Assembly: GCA_002688965.1 (NCBI GenBank) | Contig: NZEE01000084.1 | Location: 1 to 9,223 of the forward strand | Direction: 5' to 3' | Source: an archaeon | GTDB taxonomy: Archaea > Aenigmatarchaeota > Aenigmatarchaeia > GW2011-AR5 > GCA-2688965 | Length of the DNA stretch: 9,223 bases | Shown: in pieces, positions 78 through 9,223 of the stretch | Layout of the letters: each line of letters begins with the position of its first letter | How positions within the stretch are numbered: the stretch's first letter is position 1 | Made by a program: the position numbers and the translations under genes | Notes under the pieces: model-generated | What the model was told of the DNA's origin: nothing | Seen by the model: only the letters and a program-made list of their open reading frames with translations | Database searches by the model: none

Positions 78-3000
78 TTATTCATGGGCAGGGCAACACA
101 ACCAATCATTAGGATTAGATATACCTCTACTTTGTAATATAGAATTCTCACACATACCCACTTCACATTTACGCGTAGCAGCATCAACCCAAGTTTTAGT
201 ATCTTGACACGCATAAACCTTACTTATCCATACTTTTGTTTCACATGTAGTTTTTTGATTTGGATTTCCCGTTGAACCATCCCAATATATCCAATTCCCC
301 TGTCCCATTTGTAATGAATGACTCTCTGAACTCTGGGGATCTCGACCACTAATCCAACCTTGATCCTCTACACTTTCACAAAGCTGTTGTATTTGAGGAA
401 CAGGGCCACAAGAACTTGGATTACCATCAATTGTTTTACAAAGTGTAGTTCCCCAATCACAACCATCATCAGAACTAGCCTCTGGATGATAATTACAAGG
501 CATCATCTGTATATTAGTTTCTGGAATAAACATAGCTTCTGTTTTACAACCGGCTGAAGTATCCTGAATATCCACCTGTGGCGTTGATGATTTATCAAAG
601 CCATGAGTTTGTCTTCCCGGGAACTTTTCATCTGGTGTATATGGTGGTGGCTCTTCCCAATCAGCCTCCTTCTGCCACATTTCTTCTCCACGAATTTCAG
701 CTTCTTCATCAGATGTAGCAAATTCATCTTCAGGTTCAAGAGGAACATTAGGTCGCATAGGTGGTGGTTGATCCCACTCTCCAAATTCATCCATTTTAGT
801 ATCTTCAATTGTTATATCTTCATCAAAAAATTCATCTTCAGAAGCCACAGGAACTGATGGATGTTCTGGGCGATTTTTGCATAAATTACCATCATCATGA
901 GTTGCTTGAGGATCATAATTATCCATTGTAGGATCCATACACCCCCATTTAAATTCTGGAATTTTATGTTCCGGTTCCTGTACTTCCTGTATGTTATCTA
1001 GATAGGTTCCAGCAGATGATGATTTACCCCCCTTACGAATAGCACGAGGAGTAATATTTAATTCTTTTTCTAGAACTTTTTCAGCTGTTTCTTTAATCTT
1101 TTTATCTGTACTCCCACCATCAATATTGCTAGGTGGTGCGCCTCCTGAAGAAGCTTCAGTAAATTTCTGTACATTTATATCATGTTCTTTTTTAGAAACG
1201 CCGCCTAAAGATTTATTATCACCATCACGTAATGGTGATGGATCACCAGTACCAGTATCTTCAGATATGGATGCTGGTGGGGATACTGTGCTTAATCCAA
1301 ATAATTTATCTATAGGACGCCAAGCAATTTCATTTGCAGGATTAATAGGAGAAATTGTCCATAGTCCATCTCGTCCAATAACTATATAAAATTTTGTTCT
1401 TACAGCCCAATTTGAAATTAAAGGTAAACATCCATAACCACGACCATATTCTGATTCAAGATTTCTTTCCTTATCAACACCCCATATTGATTTTAATTTT
1501 ACTTTTGGCTGCCGTGATGTTGTGGAAAGATTATCATATAGAGCCTGAAGATCTTTCATAGCTTCTTCCACATATTCTGGTTTTTCATATTTTCCATCCT
1601 TCCCATATATTACTGGTAGTGGAAGATCTTTAACTACACCCTTTTCTTTATCTGTATCATATAAAAAATCAAGATTAGCATTCAAACCCCAAATAACAGT
1701 TCCAAATTCTTTCCCCACACCTACATTCGATACATCAACTACTACACACTCATATACGATTTGAATATTAAGTGGAGTATCACCATTTTTCCCAGAATTT
1801 AGTATTATTGGTTTTAAATCTCCAAACATTTGAAGATATGGATCAAAATTTGGAAATTTATATGTACTGAGATAATTTTTATCTATCCTATAAGTTGCAT
1901 TATTTTCTCCCTCCCCAACTTCCGTAGCAACTCTCATCTGAGTTGTAAAAGATGTAGTCCACGTATCTCCAATTTCGTGAGATACTTTCATTATTTGAAA
2001 ATAAGCATTATTACGATAATTTTCCGGTAAATAATTAATTGCAATTAAATTTCCAGGAAAGAATCCGGATATACCATATATAGTCAAATTTGCTTCAATT
2101 TGAATTAATGGTGCTATTTTTTCTATCTGCCCTTCCAACCCAATAGCCTTCCAATATGCATCCAGATTAGGAACTTTGGTATAAGTACTTCTAAGTAAAG
2201 TTAAAATATTTACAGGACCACCTTCAGCCTCCTCTTCTGAGGGATGCCATTCCCCCAGGATAAGCTTACCAGCTCCTTCCAACCCTGCCTTCGCCGTATG
2301 TTTGATTTCTGGGGCATTGTCTCTGACCGCCACCGCCCAAGGGCCCAAAAGATAGGGAAAATATGATTTTACTGTATCAGTAAACTTAACTACTATATCC
2401 CCTGCCTTCTCCAAAAAACTTTGATCTGCTTTTACTGGTGGGGCCATTTCTTCCAGATACTTCTGCATTTCGAGGGTCTCTTCTGTAGTTGGTGCGTCAC
2501 TGGCGCCGGCGATCTTATATAATTCTTCAAGTCGTGCTCTGAAATTGCCATCAAAACTGCTCATGGTGGATGTCTCTAGTATATTGGCGCCCATACCAAT
2601 GCTACCCTTCATTTGTTGCTGATAAATTTCCGTCCCCACGAAATTTGACAAACCACCCATAAGTTTTTCGTTGAATCTAGTAGTCGGCTGTAATCCGGCA
2701 GCTGGTTCATATTTTATAAATTTATTAGCCAAATTTTCTACATCACCATTTCCTTTATTTACCCCTTTTTTTTGGTTCATTATTTCAAATGAGGTAAAAC
2801 TTTTTACTAATTCCAACACTGATGAATTTTGTATATTATTCAATCCTTTCATATTATTAACACCAGATGACTGAATTGCTAATATATTTCCTAAACCCTG
2901 TTTTGGCATTGAAAAAGATAAAGCATATTCCTTAACAATTGTACCTTTACTATATGGACTAAATAATAATAATTTTTTAATAAACTCCTCAGGTGTTTCC

Positions 3001-4871
3001 CAATTTTCAGGAGTTTTGCTTCTTCCTAAGAAATTCTTATCAACAAAAGATACAGTATGATTACTAATACTATCGGATGCTATATCTAAATCAATAATAT
3101 TATCAGTAACATTTTTAATTGTCTTTAGTATATGTTTTATAATACCACTTATATCCTGAGAATCACTAATAGCATCTTTTATTAATTGAATTGATATAAA
3201 TAATTCTCGTAATGGTATTTTTTCTTCTCTCTTATCCTCATCTTCCCATTCACCATACTTAGGATCATCTATAATTTCATCACCGTTATATCTATCTGGA
3301 ACCATTCCATTATATATACTATAAGTTTTTCCATCCCAGTTAGCATCCCCTTTACCCCAATGTTCTGGGTACATAATATGCTTAATGAGTTTTCCAGCTT
3401 TTTTCGGCGCTGACAACTGATCGTTCATTCTGTTTACCAACGTCCGATCCCAAGTTGCAAATGAATTTTTTGAATTATATTTTGAAAATAATTTTTTAAA
3501 ATCATTTTCTGCAGCATCTTTACTGACATTTGATAAATCATTTACATTATCACTAAACCCAAATTCAATATTTAAAAAATTATCCTCCAACCACCCAAAA
3601 CTAACATAGATGTCATTACTGTTGTTCCGAAAACATATCCCTAACTCAGAAGCTTTTTGTGCCTCCACATCGTAATGGAAACCTGGACGTTTGGTTGATA
3701 TATGCAAAACGTTTTCCATTGCATGCTTTATGCTTTCCTTAATTTGTTCTGCCGTCTCAGCATTTTTCCCATGCTGTCTCGCTAAATAATAATATACAGG
3801 ATTACAAGTACGACCCGAAGCAGCTAACGCTAGTATGGTTAAATCTAATTTATTAGTAATCTTATCTTTAAAATCATCATCAACTACAGCACTCAAAATC
3901 GCTGTATTTCTGGATACTATCTCAATACTACAATCAAATCCACCATCATCTCTATTTTTAGCGTCATAATTTGTAACATAACCAAATGATGTCTCCAAAT
4001 CACCTTTTGATAAAGTAACATATCCTGTTGGTCCATATAATTTATTATATATTTCATTTGGATCTTCTAATAATGTTTCTGGATTATATAACTTTGCAGT
4101 ATCCCAACCAAAATCTATAAATACATGAGCACCTGGTTTTAAAAAATATCTTAAATAAATTCTTTCAAAATCACTAAAATTATGAACAATAAAATTAACA
4201 GTAGTTTTCTTTATTACACCTAAAGGGCCGTCAGTTTCAGATGATATCGAAGTTATACCGGCAGGTGGTTTTAAAAACTTATTCATATCTGTTTCTTGTT
4301 CGCCTGGCATAATACCAGCCAAATTAGGATTAGCCTGATGCCATGTAGATGAATTTCGGAATGTTGATTGATTCGGACCAATAGGTAAGGTATTTAATTT
4401 ATGATTTCCAACTTCATAAATTCTTCTCGCATTAATATTTAATGCACTCCACTTATGCTCTTCAAATTTATTTTTTTGTCCTGGAATTTGTTTTAAAAAA
4501 TTATCTGCCATCTCCTCTACCGTCTTTTTATCATTATTCCACTTCGCTATTTCCTCATCACCATCTATTATTTTAGGAGTACCATCCGCACCATATACAG
4601 GCATATCCTCAAATATTTTTACAGCAGTCCACATTCGAGCTATTGGTGTACGGGAGGATAAATCAGCTAAAATGTCTTTGGGAGCTCTACCAACACCACC
4701 ATCTGGAAAATTGCGAACATAACTACTTGGTGCACCATACTTATCTGTAACATTTTGGACAGCCTCACCAAAATCAGAAGACTTAGCAAGTTCTTGTCTT
4801 AAAGCTATCTTTTGTTTTAACCAATCAAAAACATCACCACCAAATACTTTATTTTTTATATTTTGTGCCAT
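78..4871 (-). CDS. Baseplate hub-like protein (gp27/gpD type) with long acidic and Cys-rich C-terminal extension
   Basis: This 1597-residue virion protein is most likely the central baseplate hub that sits below the tube and carries the spike. Residues 205-330 (KPPAGITSISSE, LKPGAHVFIDFGWD, then GYVTNYD...DGGFDC) resemble the first hub domain of large T4-like marine phages. Residues 922-985 (LTIYGISGFFPGNLIAINY, then YFQIMKVSHEI and TTSFTTQMRV) look like the closing hub beta-domain of the gpD/gp27 group. About 590 residues separate them, including a G+C-rich stretch (residues 724-884). Residues 1196-1306 form a polar linker, 1345-1410 an acidic/proline tandem repeat, and 1440-1597 a region with 12 cysteines. 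T4 gp27 and P2 gpD are both near 390 residues, so this is about four times larger. I see no lysozyme motif. The ATG at 4869-4871 lies 11 bases after the LysM stop. Its leader has only AATAGG very close to the ATG, so translational coupling to the LysM gene is plausible. The fold family is inferred from pattern memory, not a search. Confidence 0.72.
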   Translation of the reverse strand: MAQNIKNKVFGGDVFDWLKQKIALRQELAKSSDFGEAVQNVTDKYGAPSSYVRNFPDGGVGRAPKDILADLSSRTPIARMWTAVKIFEDMPVYGADGTPKIIDGDEEIAKWNNDKKTVEEMADNFLKQIPGQKNKFEEHKWSALNINARRIYEVGNHKLNTLPIGPNQSTFRNSSTWHQANPNLAGIMPGEQETDMNKFLKPPAGITSISSETDGPLGVIKKTTVNFIVHNFSDFERIYLRYFLKPGAHVFIDFGWDTAKLYNPETLLEDPNEIYNKLYGPTGYVTLSKGDLETSFGYVTNYDAKNRDDGGFDCSIEIVSRNTAILSAVVDDDFKDKITNKLDLTILALAASGRTCNPVYYYLARQHGKNAETAEQIKESIKHAMENVLHISTKRPGFHYDVEAQKASELGICFRNNSNDIYVSFGWLEDNFLNIEFGFSDNVNDLSNVSKDAAENDFKKLFSKYNSKNSFATWDRTLVNRMNDQLSAPKKAGKLIKHIMYPEHWGKGDANWDGKTYSIYNGMVPDRYNGDEIIDDPKYGEWEDEDKREEKIPLRELFISIQLIKDAISDSQDISGIIKHILKTIKNVTDNIIDLDIASDSISNHTVSFVDKNFLGRSKTPENWETPEEFIKKLLLFSPYSKGTIVKEYALSFSMPKQGLGNILAIQSSGVNNMKGLNNIQNSSVLELVKSFTSFEIMNQKKGVNKGNGDVENLANKFIKYEPAAGLQPTTRFNEKLMGGLSNFVGTEIYQQQMKGSIGMGANILETSTMSSFDGNFRARLEELYKIAGASDAPTTEETLEMQKYLEEMAPPVKADQSFLEKAGDIVVKFTDTVKSYFPYLLGPWAVAVRDNAPEIKHTAKAGLEGAGKLILGEWHPSEEEAEGGPVNILTLLRSTYTKVPNLDAYWKAIGLEGQIEKIAPLIQIEANLTIYGISGFFPGNLIAINYLPENYRNNAYFQIMKVSHEIGDTWTTSFTTQMRVATEVGEGENNATYRIDKNYLSTYKFPNFDPYLQMFGDLKPIILNSGKNGDTPLNIQIVYECVVVDVSNVGVGKEFGTVIWGLNANLDFLYDTDKEKGVVKDLPLPVIYGKDGKYEKPEYVEEAMKDLQALYDNLSTTSRQPKVKLKSIWGVDKERNLESEYGRGYGCLPLISNWAVRTKFYIVIGRDGLWTISPINPANEIAWRPIDKLFGLSTVSPPASISEDTGTGDPSPLRDGDNKSLGGVSKKEHDINVQKFTEASSGGAPPSNIDGGSTDKKIKETAEKVLEKELNITPRAIRKGGKSSSAGTYLDNIQEVQEPEHKIPEFKWGCMDPTMDNYDPQATHDDGNLCKNRPEHPSVPVASEDEFFDEDITIEDTKMDEFGEWDQPPPMRPNVPLEPEDEFATSDEEAEIRGEEMWQKEADWEEPPPYTPDEKFPGRQTHGFDKSSTPQVDIQDTSAGCKTEAMFIPETNIQMMPCNYHPEASSDDGCDWGTTLCKTIDGNPSSCGPVPQIQQLCESVEDQGWISGRDPQSSESHSLQMGQGNWIYWDGSTGNPNQKTTCETKVWISKVYACQDTKTWVDAATRKCEVGMCENSILQSRGISNPNDWLCCPAHE
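81..554 (-). other. Cysteine-rich C-terminal domain of the hub-like protein
   Basis: Residues 1440-1597 contain 12 of the protein's 19 cysteines: 1442, 1459, 1471, 1478, 1488, 1498, 1543, 1555, 1569, 1574, and the adjacent pair 1592-1593. The domain also has many Trp, Gly and Asn residues (for example GNWIYWDGSTG). It contains a second, degenerate copy of the Cys-Asn-Tyr-x-Pro-x-Ala-x3-Asp-Asp-Gly-Cys motif at residues 1459-1471 (459-497). Cysteine-dense tails like this are typical of disulfide-stabilised extracellular modules rather than baseplate cores. An exposed, disulfide-locked, possibly surface-binding module is my inference. Confidence 0.6.
642..839 (-). repeat. Acidic/proline tandem repeat, two copies, in the hub-like protein
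   Basis: Two adjacent copies of a roughly 36-residue acidic unit occupy residues 1345-1410. Each starts EDEF and ends Trp-acidic-x-PPP: copy one has EDEFFDED ... EWDQPPPMRP, copy two has EDEFATSD ... DWEEPPPYTP. Glu and Asp dominate both copies. The unit separates the first Cys-motif (residues 1310-1331) from the Cys-rich terminal domain. It reads as a flexible, strongly negative spacer. Protein-level similarity is clear at the ends and weak in the middle, so the duplication is not recent. Confidence 0.55.
879..944 (-). other. Cys...Asp-Pro-x4-Asn-Tyr-Asp-Pro-x-Ala-x2-Asp-Asp-Gly...Cys motif
   Basis: Residues 1310-1331 read Gly-Cys-Met-Asp-Pro-Thr-Met, then DNYDPQATHDDG, then Asn-Leu-Cys. 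I recognise this as a form of the short GC-DP-A-NYdP-A-DDGsC element that recurs in secreted and surface proteins of marine Bacteroidota and in marine viral proteins. It is a compact, probably disulfide-closed, Asp-rich loop, possibly metal-binding. Its function in virions is not known to me. Confidence 0.55.
2221..2700 (-). other. G+C-rich island inside the hub-like gene
   Basis: Counting by hand, 223 of 480 bases are G or C (46%), and the segment 2221-2340 reaches 68 of 120 (57%). The flanking 60-base lines count 30% (2161-2220), 25% (2701-2760) and 28% (2761-2820). The reading frame stays open throughout. The island encodes residues 724-884, including GLSNFVGTEIYQQQ, an acidic helical stretch and a hydrophobic patch, SYFPYLLGPWAVAV. 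The edges are fairly sharp, which suggests a recombined or inserted coding segment from a source of different composition. Local amino acid bias (Gly, Ala, Pro) explains part but probably not all of the shift. Confidence 0.65.
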
Positions 4872-4882
4872 AACCTATTATT

Positions 4883-5185
4883 TTATATTCCTATAGCATA
4901 TTGAATCGATGCTGGTATCCTTAAAGAAATTCCTGCTGGGAGATGTATAAAAGTTAAATTATTAGCTTTTGCTATATACCACCACAAATTAACATCACTA
5001 TAAAATTGTTGAGCTAATAAATCTAATCTATCTCCAGTTTGAGTTATAACCCAAATATCGGTATCTGATTCTGGTATACTACTATAAATAGTAGTACCAT
5101 TAGATGTAATATTATAGACTTGTGGATTTGCTAGTCCACGAGTAACTAAACTTGTTTTAATTTTTGTATGTTCATATCTAGACAT
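4883..5185 (-). CDS. LysM-domain baseplate/tail protein (tail protein X or gp53-like)
   Basis: This 100-residue protein is complete with an ATG start and a TAA stop. Residues 46-92 form one LysM domain: VITQTGDRLDLLAQQFY, then Trp-Trp-Tyr-Ile-Ala-Lys-Ala-Asn-Asn, then LPAGISLRIP. This is the usual order of a thing-to-be-bound strand, GD-x-LD helix, aN-N turn and LP-G-x-IP ending. In phage tails such small LysM proteins (P2 gpX, T4 gp53, the LysM of tube initiators) are structural parts near the hub and wedge rather than cell-wall enzymes, and this one has no catalytic domain or signal peptide. It sits between the tube-initiator-like and hub-like genes, matching the U-X-D order. P2 gpX is about 67 residues, so roughly 45 extra N-terminal residues are present here. 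The leader carries a weak GAG core in AAAGAGA seven bases before the ATG. Confidence 0.82.
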   Translation of the reverse strand: MSRYEHTKIKTSLVTRGLANPQVYNITSNGTTIYSSIPESDTDIWVITQTGDRLDLLAQQFYSDVNLWWYIAKANNLTFIHLPAGISLRIPASIQYAIGI

Positions 5186-5225: not shown

Positions 5226-8200
5226 CTAAGTAGTTGGCAAATTATCTAAAAAATTGTTAAATCCAGTAACACTCTTATCCCACAATGTTTTAGATGCATC
5301 TACAACCCCACCATAGGCAGTAGAAGTTTCAGGCGCACTCATCTTGCCAGAACTATTTATTCCATAAAAGCTACTCCCTTTAAGTGAGTTTGCAAAATTT
5401 AAACTTGGAACTTCCGAGTGTACTACTTGAAATCCAATATTCACAGTTATATATTTAGGAACTCTTTTTCCTTGTTGAATTTCCCAAGGTGATTCATCTG
5501 GAAAATTATATGATAAACTTTTTATAAACCCTGTCATCTCTGAAGCAGTTGTACCTGGTTTAGATCCAAACAATTCACCTAATCTAAATTTAGTTAATGG
5601 TGGTTTCATTCTTAATTTATCTCCAATTTTTCCAACTGTAATTTTTGTTATAATTTCACCATCGGCGTCTGTAAATGTAACTTCCTCACTTTCTTTATAT
5701 TGAGGATAACATAAAGAAGTTAATCTCTCCATCTTCTTATAAATTGCATTTAATTCATCCTTTGTTTGTGCAAATAATTTCAAAGTAAAATTAAGTTCTC
5801 TTTCAGCATTTACATAAGAATAAACAGGTTCACTTCTTCCAATATAATTTGTTGAACTCCAATTTGGTGATAAAGTTTCTGATAATCCATCTATGTACGC
5901 TCTAAAATATAGAGTTTTATTATCTCTTAAATCTTTAAAATAAAATGGCATTCCTATTTTTGAAGATTCTGCGGTAAAACCATCTGGAAAAATATCTATT
6001 CCTAAAGCACTTTCAATACCACTTTTAATTGGATCACCTTTCAGTTCATTTTTACCCCAATCTATAGCCTTATCTAACCACCCTATTCCTAAATCACTAC
6101 TATCTTTCTCTGTATTAGGAGAAGAAACTGGCGAAACTTGCAAAGTCATTATATCACCTTTACCTAAACCGCCAAGTGGAGCATTAGTACCCATAGAATT
6201 TTGCATATTATTTATTGAATCAATTCCTGATTCGTATGTGATTCCAGCTGGATCTATGGCTTGAGATCCAAGTCCAAGTAAACTTGCACCATAATTAATA
6301 CCTCTCTCTAATAAATCTATAGGTCTAAATGCTAATGGTTTATGGGCTGCATCACGTTCTGCATATGTTTTTGACTTACCCTGACCCATAATATCCATAC
6401 TAGTAAAAAGTGATGATAAATCAAAAGAAGTTCCAGCTCTAGCATCTAACCATTCTGTATAAGTAGTTGGCATTGCAAGATCTACTAAACCACCCCACAA
6501 TCCAGTATCTCTTGTAAAATTAATTATTGGAGTACCAAGTCCTTCTGCTGGAGTAGCCACATTTAACATTGTAGAAGCTGGATCATATAAAGATTTGTAA
6601 TTTTGGAATGATCCCATAAGTTCTTGATTAATAATAAATGTTCTACCTGCATTTGAAGATAAAAATTTACCTATTCTCTGTACATCAAGTGATAATCTAC
6701 TTATTGGAAGATATTGATCTGTCCATCTTGATTCATCACTTCCTATATCAAAAGTTACATATGGTTCTGTATTAGTTCCTAAAGATAGTGTTTCATCAAG
6801 ATTAAATATATCAAGAAAAGATGTAGCTTTATCAAAAATAGGAGACTGCCCAGCCACTCTATTCCCAGTAACATTCCAAAGATTACTATTAAGATCAAAT
6901 CTACCTGCCGCATCAATATTAGATCCAAATTGAGATGGACCAATATATTTATTATCAACATTAACAGTATGGTCTTTATTATATAAAATATTAAATTGTT
7001 TTGATGGTAGTCCACCTTTATTAGAACCTTTTGATGGGTCAATATTTTCAACTCCACTTTGAATTTTATAATATCCAGGTCTGGTTGATTCTAAAAGTGC
7101 ATTTATATCAAATTCATCAGATAAAGTTATAAAATTTCTTGAATGCTTACTATCAAAATAATCAGTTGATGGATTCCATGTACGACCCAAACCATCATCT
7201 TCTATACCCTCTATTAATGTAGAAGAATTTTGATCTAAACCAATTGTAAATGTATCACCAAAATGTGTTACTTGTTCACTACCAATTACATCAGTAAATG
7301 TTATATTTGTATTACCAGCCCCATAATGTGGAGGTCTAATGTGAGTTCCAGTAGATACATCAACATATTCAGAATTTCCAACTCCATCTCCTATATTATA
7401 TGGCATTGAATATTTAGTAAATCCTGAAACTGCTGGATCTACAGTAGAATAATAAGAATTTACACCAGTCATAAAATCAACTGGACCTTTAAATGTATCA
7501 TTACCAGTTCCAGTCAAGGCATTTGTTGTATGAATACTATCTTGATATGTAAAACCGTCTGGTGAATTAGGAGTTTCAGTTGGTATACTCCAAGTAGTAC
7601 CATCCGGTGGTATAAGATTTGTATATGACCAAGTTTCACTAAATATATTATCTATTGCATTTGTTGTATGAATACTGTCATAATAAGTATTCGGATTTGT
7701 CCAAGTTGTATCACTACCAATAGGTAAATCCGAATCAAATATATAATTAGAACCTAAAAATGTTATTGACGCATTTAATGAAGATTGATTACCAAATGGA
7801 TGAGTTGGTCTAGTATGAGTTCCAGTTAAAATATCTATAAATTTAGAATTTCCAGCTACACCATCACCAAATGTATAACCACCAGTATTAAAATCATTGG
7901 TAAATCCTGGAATTCCAGAAGGTGATACCTCTGGATTCACTTCAGTATAATATGAATTTAATCCAGTCATAAAATCAACAGGACCTGGAAAAGATATATT
8001 TCTAAAAAATTGTACATATGGTCCATGAGTCTTGCTATGAATGGCTGGAAATTCACCAAATGGAAAAAAGATTGATTTTCCCACACCAGACCCAAATGCA
8101 TATCCTGGAGGGAAATCACTATTACCAACATTAAGTGTAAATCCCGATGTAAGATCGTGGGCATGAATAGGATAATATGAATTCTCCCCACTCATAAAAT

Positions 8201-8675
8201 TAACAGGCATAGTATCTACTGAATACATTGAAGTACCAGAGGTTAAATCACCACCAGCTACTAATGCACCAAAATCTCCGCCACCACCATCAGGAACATT
8301 ATCAACACCAATGTAATTACTTGGATTATTAACATCTTGATATCGAGTTAAAGTATCATATAAATTAGAATACTCACCAATAGATACACCTTCACCATAT
8401 AAACTATTATTTGTAAATGTCATATTTGGAGATGCACCACCAACTCCTGTAAAAAGACTTGCCGGTGATTGATAGTTTTGATTTGCAGTAAATCCTGGCG
8501 ATTTTTCATTACCCATATAATCAACTTCTTGTGGTTCAGTTTGAATAGAATATTGACTAACCATTGTTGTTACATCAGTTTGAAGATTAGAAGAAACATC
8601 TTCTACACTTTTCTCTGTAGCTTCAACAAATGATTTTATGTTTGAAAACGCACTTTTTAAATTTTCAAGGCCCAA
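5226..8675 (-). CDS. Tail-tube-initiator/baseplate-like structural protein with repeat-bearing N-terminal half
   Basis: This 1149-residue virion protein starts at TTG. The C-terminal part (about residues 905-1095) has the organised look of a tube-end/baseplate domain: FYFKDLRDNKTLYFRAYIDG, SPNWSSTNYIGRSEPVYSY, ERELNFTLKLFAQTKDEL, SLCYPQY, then TGFIKSLSYNFPDESPWE and a final beta run VPKYITVNIGFQVVHSEVP. I link this to the gpU/gp54-type position between tape measure and LysM protein, by context and pattern only. Residues 51-518 hold degenerate repeats (VDFMTG-x-NSYY, GDGV...GTH-x-RP-x-H, YDSIHTTN). Residues 520-900 are Gly/Ser/Asn/Asp-rich with little I recognise. Histidine is concentrated in residues 171-511 (12 of 15), and there is one cysteine (989). 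The usual relatives are 160-370 residues, so most of this protein is added material. It ends with TAG at 5226-5228. Confidence 0.68.
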   Translation of the reverse strand: MGLENLKSAFSNIKSFVEATEKSVEDVSSNLQTDVTTMVSQYSIQTEPQEVDYMGNEKSPGFTANQNYQSPASLFTGVGGASPNMTFTNNSLYGEGVSIGEYSNLYDTLTRYQDVNNPSNYIGVDNVPDGGGGDFGALVAGGDLTSGTSMYSVDTMPVNFMSGENSYYPIHAHDLTSGFTLNVGNSDFPPGYAFGSGVGKSIFFPFGEFPAIHSKTHGPYVQFFRNISFPGPVDFMTGLNSYYTEVNPEVSPSGIPGFTNDFNTGGYTFGDGVAGNSKFIDILTGTHTRPTHPFGNQSSLNASITFLGSNYIFDSDLPIGSDTTWTNPNTYYDSIHTTNAIDNIFSETWSYTNLIPPDGTTWSIPTETPNSPDGFTYQDSIHTTNALTGTGNDTFKGPVDFMTGVNSYYSTVDPAVSGFTKYSMPYNIGDGVGNSEYVDVSTGTHIRPPHYGAGNTNITFTDVIGSEQVTHFGDTFTIGLDQNSSTLIEGIEDDGLGRTWNPSTDYFDSKHSRNFITLSDEFDINALLESTRPGYYKIQSGVENIDPSKGSNKGGLPSKQFNILYNKDHTVNVDNKYIGPSQFGSNIDAAGRFDLNSNLWNVTGNRVAGQSPIFDKATSFLDIFNLDETLSLGTNTEPYVTFDIGSDESRWTDQYLPISRLSLDVQRIGKFLSSNAGRTFIINQELMGSFQNYKSLYDPASTMLNVATPAEGLGTPIINFTRDTGLWGGLVDLAMPTTYTEWLDARAGTSFDLSSLFTSMDIMGQGKSKTYAERDAAHKPLAFRPIDLLERGINYGASLLGLGSQAIDPAGITYESGIDSINNMQNSMGTNAPLGGLGKGDIMTLQVSPVSSPNTEKDSSDLGIGWLDKAIDWGKNELKGDPIKSGIESALGIDIFPDGFTAESSKIGMPFYFKDLRDNKTLYFRAYIDGLSETLSPNWSSTNYIGRSEPVYSYVNAERELNFTLKLFAQTKDELNAIYKKMERLTSLCYPQYKESEEVTFTDADGEIITKITVGKIGDKLRMKPPLTKFRLGELFGSKPGTTASEMTGFIKSLSYNFPDESPWEIQQGKRVPKYITVNIGFQVVHSEVPSLNFANSLKGSSFYGINSSGKMSAPETSTAYGGVVDASKTLWDKSVTGFNNFLDNLPTT
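7122..7484 (-). repeat. Internal protein repeat, unit 3 (residues 398-518)
   Basis: The unit runs PVDFMTGVNSYY, VSGFT, NIGDGVGNSEYVDVSTGTH, IRPPH, NTNITF, TWNPS and ends YFDSKHSRN. The same elements in the same order form unit 2 at 7647-7982. At DNA level its first 33 bases on the plus strand (7456-7488) match 7954-7986 at 30 of 33 positions. Confidence 0.7.
7518..7679 (-). repeat. Near-exact direct DNA repeat encoding DSIHTTNA, two copies
   Basis: The 24-base stretches at 7518-7541 and 7656-7679 match at 22 positions, including an identical 20-base core (gcatttgttgtatgaatact on the plus strand). Both encode DSIHTTNA (residues 379-386 and 333-340), preceded by TYQ or TYY. A third, diverged protein copy (YFDSKHSRN, residues 506-514) lacks the DNA match. 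This points to a relatively recent duplication or gene conversion within the gene, or strong constraint on the peptide. Confidence 0.75.
7647..7982 (-). repeat. Internal protein repeat, unit 2 (residues 232-343)
   Basis: The unit runs PVDFMTGLNSYY, PGFTNDF, YTFGDGVAGNSKFIDILTGTH, TRPTH, NASITF, TWTNPN and ends YYDSIHTTNA. It is the best-preserved copy and pairs with unit 3 across its full length of roughly 115 residues. Between the two units lies a shorter stretch (residues 344-397) that carries an extra YQDSIHTTNA end element. Confidence 0.7.
7986..8207 (-). repeat. Internal protein repeat, degenerate unit 1 (residues 157-230)
   Basis: The start PVNFMSGENSYY clearly matches the heads of units 2 and 3. 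SGFT and YAFGSGVGKS follow in the same order, then FPAIHSKTHGPYV where the other units have GTH-x-RP. The end element is not recognisable. A possible still older copy begins at residue 51 (VDYMG, then PGFT at 60-63) but is too diverged to call firmly. Unit 1 also contains an HAH (residues 171-173). Confidence 0.55.
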
Positions 8676-8681
8676 CTTTTA

Positions 8682-8688
8682 TCTCCTT
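8682..8688 (-). promoter_or_regulatory. Strong Shine-Dalgarno AAGGAGA that fixes a TTG start
   Basis: On the minus strand the junction reads TTAAGGAGATAAAAG followed by TTG at 8675-8673. The GGAG core lies seven bases before the TTG. It also begins directly after the TAA stop of the tape measure gene (8689-8687), so termination and reinitiation are tightly linked. An in-frame TAA at 8681-8679 rules out any upstream start, and the next in-frame ATG is at codon 38. The site shows that this phage uses a host with ordinary bacterial-type (anti-Shine-Dalgarno) initiation. Confidence 0.9.
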
Positions 8689-9223
8689 AACCAAATAACC
8701 CGCTTTTAATTTTAGTTTCTTTGGGTACTTTACCAGCAAACTCTATTATATATTGACCTTTTGATCCTGGATTTCCACCAAAACCTTTTACTAACTTTTG
8801 TAATTCTATTGTAACAGGTGCCATAGCATCTTCTAACATTTTAGAAAGTTTTTCAATTGGTATTACTGCTTCATTTGGATGTACATTCATTAACCCTTCT
8901 TCTGTAGTAATTGCACCCTCATGTGCTGTTGCTATTTCAGAACCAGTAGCCATCCCTACTCCTGTCTTCATTCTATTCCAAGATTTACCTGGATCATATG
9001 AAAATCCTTGACCAGCTATAAGTCTCAACAAGGTATTAATTCCAGAAATTTCTAACAATACATCTAACGCTCCTATTAAACCATTAATAAGAACTAGGAT
9101 AACATTTAAAGCAGGACCTAATCCATTTACCAATATAGCACCCATAGATTTAAACATTCCTGTCATTTGTGTTAAGGTTGATATTCCACCCGCACCAATT
9201 AATTCATCAAATCCTGGTTGTCC
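8687..9223 (-). CDS. Tail tape measure protein, C-terminal 178 residues (5' end outside window)
   Basis: The frame is open to the window edge, reading GQPGFDELIGAGGISTLTQ before the first internal Met (9166), so that Met is not a real start and the gene is cut. The visible part has a long hydrophobic run (ILVNGLGPALNVILVLINGL and GALDVLLEI, about residues 29-60 of the visible part), as tape measures often do. It then has HEGAITTEEGL and VHPNEAVIPIEKL (VHPNEAVIP at 8858-8884). That small element, a glycine/acidic turn leading into hPxE-x-V-I-P-hydrophobic-x-K-L, is common near the end of phage tape measure proteins. The protein would run along the tube lumen, set its length and contact the baseplate through this C-terminus. 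It is followed, 11 bases later, by the tube-initiator-like gene, consistent with this role. Confidence 0.8.
   Translation of the reverse strand, partial: GQPGFDELIGAGGISTLTQMTGMFKSMGAILVNGLGPALNVILVLINGLIGALDVLLEISGINTLLRLIAGQGFSYDPGKSWNRMKTGVGMATGSEIATAHEGAITTEEGLMNVHPNEAVIPIEKLSKMLEDAMAPVTIELQKLVKGFGGNPGSKGQYIIEFAGKVPKETKIKSGLFG

Follow-up and report, generated by a model that had tools for sequence, protein, structure and literature searches.

The open reading frame at positions 78-4871 of the window (the whole 9,223-nucleotide stretch of DNA analysed here) encodes a baseplate hub of the gp27/gp44/VgrG type, an identity to which its predicted fold, its place in the gene order and 19 relatives in sequence all point, and this hub belongs to a contractile-tailed phage. 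The part that it shares with other hubs ends near residue 1191 and is followed by a cysteine-rich tail. In the relatives, the hub C-terminus seems to be a slot for other tails, a peptidase, or nothing. The reading that we tentatively adopt, to which we give slightly less than an even chance, is that the tail is an exposed, exchangeable hub module contacting the host envelope, whose exposure, disulfide bonds and binding we infer.

Table 1. Features of the window, with hub residues and nucleotide positions
Feature	Hub residues	Window positions	Strand	Basis or remark
Hub gene	1597 aa	78-4871	-	Open reading frame; window base 1286 corresponds to residue 1196
Hub core, gp27/gp44/VgrG-type fold	67-983	1923..4673	-	Predicted fold
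Post-hub region, weakly shared	986-1195	1287..1916	-	Ends in a strand-W-helix element
Polar linker	1196-1306	954..1286	-	111 aa, 0 Cys, 0 Trp, 19 acidic, 15 basic
GC-D motif 1, GCMDPTMDNYDPQATHDDGNLC	1310-1331	879..944	-	Two Cys, at 1311 and 1331
Acidic/proline tandem repeat, two copies	~1339-1374, ~1375-1413	633..857	-	Shuffle test and DNA repeats
Degenerate GC-D motif 2	1441-1471	459..551	-	DNA repeat of motif 1 and protein alignment
12-cysteine region, ending WLCCP	1442-1593	93..548	-	Cys count
LysM/tail-X-like baseplate protein		4883..5185	-	phrog_7145, E 2.1e-9; just upstream of hub
Variable-length baseplate-region protein		5226..8675	-	No family match
Tape-measure protein, C-terminal end		8687..9223	-	phrog_1535, E 1.2e-4

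On its minus strand, the window carries the end of a tape-measure gene followed by genes for a variable baseplate-region protein, a LysM/tail-X protein and the 1597-aa hub (Table 1); its source is a virus of bacteria, probably a marine one. Besides the hub itself, 19 relatives were found in a database of 5.8 billion proteins. A search of IMG/VR with the profile of these relatives returned 203 stretches, 148 of them encoding a relative, and the best 80 of the 148 form the locus set used below. Gene order is stable within the contigs of these loci (sheath, tube, often a GH108 muramidase, a T4_baseplate-family protein, tape measure, variable protein, LysM and hub), and the LysM/tail-X protein (cluster c01) is present in 77 of 81 loci. 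By gene order in both the window and its relatives, the hub sits in the tail operon after the tape-measure and LysM/tail-X genes. The relatives' hubs are followed at their 3' side by genes for a DNA polymerase (cluster c04, 65 loci), a thioredoxin-like protein, an SSB, UvsX and an exonuclease, with one exception (L014), in which unrelated genes come next; since mostly replication genes come after it in the relatives, the tail cluster ends with the hub. In one locus (L045), the nearest named tail tubes are those of Microcystis phage Mel-JY01 (60%), Flavobacterium phage vB_FspM_immuto (hereafter immuto; 50%) and Rhodothermus RM378 (40%), and the nearest UvsX is that of Mel-JY01 (55%). A Bacteroidota host is plausible, judging from immuto and from the GC-D motif of the tail.

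Relatives of the variable protein measure 269-1402 aa as found, some being shortened by contig ends, and in Mel-JY01 a 2255-aa protein occupies its place. The window's gene for this protein contains imperfect 69-nt and 61-nt repeats, and the C-terminal third of the product appears by eye to be conserved. Between the thioredoxin-like and SSB genes, 23 loci encode a small Cys-rich protein of ~134 aa (cluster c15, including L045:15337-15738) that looks zinc-ribbon-like by eye. The thioredoxin-like cluster c13 (28 loci) was considered as a disulfide helper and dropped, because it adjoins hubs both with and without Cys tails.

The alignment used for folding (A3) comprised 69 rows. In the single-chain prediction, the window's hub has its fold in common with T4 gp27, Mu gp44, VgrG and the PVC hub, and the structural match stops at residue 979-983, which we take to be the point where PVC and VgrG chains proceed to the spike. 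Other hubs begin where its N-terminus begins in the alignment, and by homology the hub would be trimeric. Hubs of these four kinds end after the hub or continue into an OB-fold spike; to our knowledge, none carries a 400-aa Cys-rich tail. No relative was confirmed among the 97 stretches obtained when the hub alignment was compared with one genome per GTDB species, nor among the 6 stretches obtained from viral contigs with six peptides taken from the whole hub. For the whole protein, neither PHROG nor NCBIfam gave a family and Pfam gave nothing above its cut-off, and a comparison with PDB sequences gave one chance-level match (E 0.2) for the single sequence and none for the profile.

Conservation drops after residue ~1012 and rises again in the final strand-W-helix element. 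W1171 and F1191 are the last invariant columns among the nine nearest hubs, and BLAST matches between the window's part after residue 985 and other hubs go no further than residue 1232 (P0004, E 8e-4). In the hub prediction, pLDDT stays under 50 in two stretches of the post-hub region (1051-1091 and 1117-1157), and no family match was found for residues 986-1597.

Codon usage is unusual inside the core, at hub residues ~727-924 (window 2100-2693). GC3 in 66-codon bins is 0.32-0.45 there, against 0.21 for residues 1-1195, and the codon-usage z is -10.5 for residues 691-890; the maximum 120-codon GC3 of the hub, 0.44 from residue 754, was never approached in 2000 shuffles, whose highest value was 0.39. 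The stretch, which also holds the bin with the lowest occupancy in the hub alignment (residues 783-828), may be interpreted as a recombined insert or a strain mosaic.

The tail (residues 1196-1597) holds 14 of the 19 Cys of the hub protein. Its two acidic/proline copies, of ~36-39 aa each, align with a score of 68 (maximum 52 in 2000 shuffles), and the repeat is also found in the DNA with spacings of 108 and 117 nt (D2, D4); tested with a wrong copy boundary, it was weaker (score 44, equalled in 8 of 1000 shuffles). The pattern GC-D...NYDPxATxDDG-C was absent from 200000 of 200000 tail shuffles and is therefore not a product of composition. A partial second GC-D copy (NYHPEASSDDGC, residues 1460-1471) lies inside the 12-Cys region, and motifs 1 and 2 are linked by a DNA repeat of 34 nt (D1, 76%). 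Codon usage of the tail is only mildly unlike that of the rest of the hub (z -2.5), so that a recent foreign capture was left unsupported, and a PPPY motif was dropped as a signal because it is chance-prone. Folded alone, the tail gave an uninformative model (pLDDT 41, pTM 0.21). Its protein cluster contains 5 member sequences and represents one contig. The first-pass annotation had proposed a baseplate hub with a tail starting at residue 1196 and composed of a polar linker, a Cys-Asp motif, an acidic/proline repeat and 12 Cys, with no mention of the second GC-D copy. Predicted fold, gene order and relatives bear out the identity, counts and shuffle tests confirm every part of the tail, and the proposed start is about right, falling between the last invariant columns and the end of the matches.

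The tail was compared with several collections. Against the 19 relatives, residues 1196-1597 gave a best BLAST E of 2.9, although identity to the window's hub in pieces of the core is 17-46%; the tail is thus not conserved at core-like levels. Neither the tail alone against 2214 candidates (E 1e-3) nor six tail peptides against IMG/VR viral contigs gave a match, and beyond residue 1232 no BLAST match (E <= 1e-3) was found among the 88 other hubs. Searched in full-length context against 630 candidates, residues 1300-1597 found only themselves, plus P0023, a GC-D repeat protein, at E 1.7. The tail has no Pfam, NCBIfam or PHROG match, and among 50,697 phage records it had a lone match, to Vibrio phage GR7B, at E 0.3. 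Its sister hub P0002 (branch support 97) carries 15 Cys after residue 985, in a tail that gave no alignment with the window's. For the 12-Cys region, no significant homolog was found in the searches made. Its equation with the [WI][LM]CCP modules of another hub, L005, seemed convincing by eye and was borderline by score (57 against a maximum of 56 in 500 shuffles), but was rejected after an HMM test (domain 6.3 bits against 6.9 for the best of 200 shuffles). Its equation with the end common to hubs L044 and L035 likewise seemed convincing by eye and was rejected, 485 and 428 of 1000 shuffles having scored equally high.

To see what other hubs carry after the core, 89 hubs were compared, namely the window's, 18 database proteins and those of 70 IMG/VR loci. 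Ten of the 80 loci were left out of the tree and tail counts (L006, L027 and L078, cut at the 3' side; L058, cut at the 5' side; and the short hub ORFs of at most 900 aa in L013, L032, L033, L043, L055 and L067), and P0020 was also excluded. The length after residue 985 has a median of 258 aa, and the 612 aa of the window rank fifth. After the same residue, 56 of the 89 hubs have 0 or 1 Cys, whereas 14, scattered on the tree, have 5 or more, a count that includes the post-hub region, so that the 5 Cys of L037, for instance, form no separate tail. By a quick method, the core tree needs 12 changes to explain the trait of 5 or more Cys, and branches with good support make at least 10 of these unavoidable; since the 12 is only slightly under the mean of 13.3 for shuffled labels (73 of 500 were as low), hubs with the trait are not clearly clustered.

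The most Cys-rich tail of the 89 hubs is that of L005 (L005:4993-12576), a protein of 2528 aa with ~1540 residues after the core; counted from the position of residue 985, its last 1585 residues include 151 Cys. It contains four GC-D motifs and four [WI][LM]CCP modules, and its tail gave no match among 50,697 phage records. L044 and L035, which belong to different clades, have a common Cys-rich end (score 109, maximum 64 in 1000 shuffles). Other hubs bear an enzyme or stop early. That of immuto, the only cultured relative found directly with the window's hub, has a VanY peptidase at residues 816-936, and the 671-aa hub of Mel-JY01 terminates at the core end. P0020 shows a sub-threshold peptidoglycan-binding match near its C-terminus (E 0.0092). 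In alignment A4, which brings together the post-hub regions of the window and of 61 of the 70 loci, no enzyme domain was recognised in any of the 62 regions; the sole Pfam matches at 0.01 were HK_sensor and E2F_CC-MB, in one member each. The first-pass annotation had asked whether the C-terminal module differs between relatives while the hub is shared; it does, the slot holding other tails, VanY, or nothing. The immuto hub (L081:11650-14466; QQO92155.1), annotated merely as 'carboxypeptidase', is a baseplate hub by profile and gene order.

The GC-D motif is also found outside hubs. In genomes, GC-D...NY.P.A..DDG.C occurs in at least 119 stretches; among the 80 loci listed, 63 belong to Bacteroidota, 7 to Fidelibacterota and 6 to others, and 4 are unassigned, these being raw counts in which several loci come from the same genome. 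P0023 is a T9SS-sorted protein with 9 pattern matches, spaced 24, 47 or 48 aa, plus the T9SS sorting domain, and motif 1 of the window resembles one such unit, having the two Cys and the NYxPxAxxDDG consensus (76% over 21 aa with the best P0023 unit; database-wide E 1.7). Whereas T9SS-sorted GC-D proteins carry arrays, the window has a single full copy, with a degenerate one at some distance from it, and its hub and tail lack a T9SS sorting domain in a scan of NCBIfam (including TIGR04183) that detected it in P0023.

A looser form of the motif is present in at least 83 ORFs in IMG/VR, in 80 loci among the matches listed, and none of the ORFs in these loci reached 1e-3 against the hub profile. 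Of the 65 motif ORFs with their own start, at least 19 appear to bear a signal peptide by a crude test, and others are long, some of them Cys-poor, without the look of a signal peptide. A single motif is thus nothing rare among phage proteins and, since it also occurs in such Cys-poor viral ones, reveals little on its own about the task of the hub. Within the best 80 of the 148 hub loci and the window, it was found in three hubs only, those of the window, L005 and L044, and in no other of the 1394 ORFs examined. The hubs of L005 and L044 belong to the same family as the window's, and their tails are Cys-rich with a GC-D motif, but are otherwise unalignable with the window's at E 1e-3. Thus, GC-D is a travelling disulfide-type unit present in some hubs.

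Contractile phages have been described in which the hub carries additional domains. Those of the gp15 hub of Anabaena myophage A-1(L) (8kea_A) are enzymes (a lysozyme, an endoglucanase and a C-terminal peptidase), and the peptidase domain (736-899), lying beyond the barrel, hydrolysed host cells (PMC10966104). The host envelope can therefore be the target of a domain placed at the C-terminus of a hub. The window's tail differs in being Cys-rich and without an enzyme match. The immuto hub, of 938 aa, resembles the window's in its similar tail-gene order, in a core that matches the hub profile (E 5e-31) and in the module after the core, and differs in that this module is a VanY carboxypeptidase. 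The window and these enzyme-bearing hubs therefore have in common a C-terminal module beyond the core, but in the window Pfam, NCBIfam and PHROG reveal no recognisable hydrolase. Disulfide-rich hub tails were not found among the literature matches listed, which came mostly from outside subscription journals.

Whether a separate spike exists bears on one proposal made for the tail. The 168-kb record of L021, a locus whose own hub lacks a Cys-rich tail, encodes a 438-aa protein (P0024; L322:7190-8503) three genes before gp25, which by its sequence resembles an OB-fold/beta-helix spike. Its only relevant Pfam hint is DUF2345 (E 0.18), and it has no match among PDB sequences. Immuto has a protein with weak likeness to it in the corresponding place (24%, E 8e-4), and Mel-JY01 has a similar one (29%, E 5e-16), both annotated as 'hypothetical protein'; a search of 16 records, possibly fragments, did not detect P0024 in the 15 besides that of L021. 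A tail that took over from the central spike as the tip that pierces would fit with the hub being last in the tail cluster, mostly followed by replication genes in the relatives, and with PAAR and Gp5_OB not having been found in 12 records, although these are possibly fragments and the Gp5_OB search had no match in controls either. Nevertheless, P0024 and its immuto counterpart disfavour spike replacement for the family, even if the L021 hub lacks a Cys-rich tail, and we regard it as very improbable.

VgrG and PVC hubs, which continue into a spike, are a precedent for a fusion of roles. The A-1(L) hub, with its peptidase beyond the barrel (PMC10966104), is another. The first-pass suggestions that hubs normally end at the spike contact and that the tail stands in for the spike are weakened by these comparisons, the former being too strong and the latter disfavoured; of the supposedly unusual fusion of roles, what remains new is its disulfide-rich kind.

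Under the reading that we adopt, the hub chain would leave on the side where fused hubs start their spike, and the flexible linker would carry three copies of the Cys-rich module out beside the spike. The cysteines would oxidise after lysis, giving a knob that is rigid and resists proteases. When the phage meets its host, the module might grip the envelope and assist in placing the tube, either ahead of contraction or in the course of it. The cytoplasm in which structural proteins of phages fold is reducing, so that disulfides in the tail would need oxidation after lysis, a point that counts against an exposed module. The A-1(L) peptidase (PMC10966104) and phage Milano, which shows that disulfides are available to phage tails (PMC10811340), lead us to prefer, at somewhat less than even odds, an exposed, exchangeable, envelope-contacting module.

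The many disulfides of phage Milano, by which baseplate and sheath are cross-linked (PMC10811340), also speak for a structural clamp, in which the cysteines, through inter-chain disulfides, and the acidic repeats would hold the hub trimer, the spike or the wedges together until contraction without touching the host. Such parts could vary between phages along with their partners. A family-wide clamp is at odds with the 56 of 89 hubs in which residue 985 is followed by one Cys or none, and the tandem GC-D units of the T9SS-sorted P0023 would suggest bonds within units; we consider the clamp rather unlikely. An envelope-degrading enzyme that has escaped recognition would occupy the same place in the chain as the immuto VanY and the A-1(L) peptidase (PMC10966104), but the missing family matches of the tail, the absence of recognised enzyme domains in the 62 post-hub regions and the Cys-rich, acidic make-up of the tail render it quite improbable. 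A weakly constrained appendage with little function, or a chimeric contig, would account for a tail unmatched in the searches made, for the compositional mosaic within the hub (residues ~727-924) and for a protein cluster that represents a single contig. The same cluster, however, has 5 member sequences, tail codon usage is near that of the rest, the frame is open with duplicated units, and Cys-rich tails recur in other contigs, all of which make this explanation improbable.

Extended to the contractile, mainly marine phage group as a whole, the exposed-module reading would make the hub C-terminus a quick-change socket, through which the hub itself contacts the host envelope, a generalisation that we put forward as somewhat unlikely. 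Equally doubtful at present is its corollary that the socket is filled by peptidases, by nothing, or by disulfide-rich modules made up of the repeat units of surface proteins that bacteria secrete, L005 being the extreme case. Host recognition by contractile phages is usually sought in the fibres; if the socket is real, a host-range determinant made of host-like adhesive units would lie at the centre of the baseplate and not in peripheral fibres. The disulfide-rich modules also raise the question of how a phage brings 14 cysteines (151 in L005) into the right fold while the cytoplasm is reducing. If the hub does present interchangeable surface modules, hub C-termini would offer a further readout of host range and envelope chemistry, most useful for uncultured phages with unrecognisable fibres.
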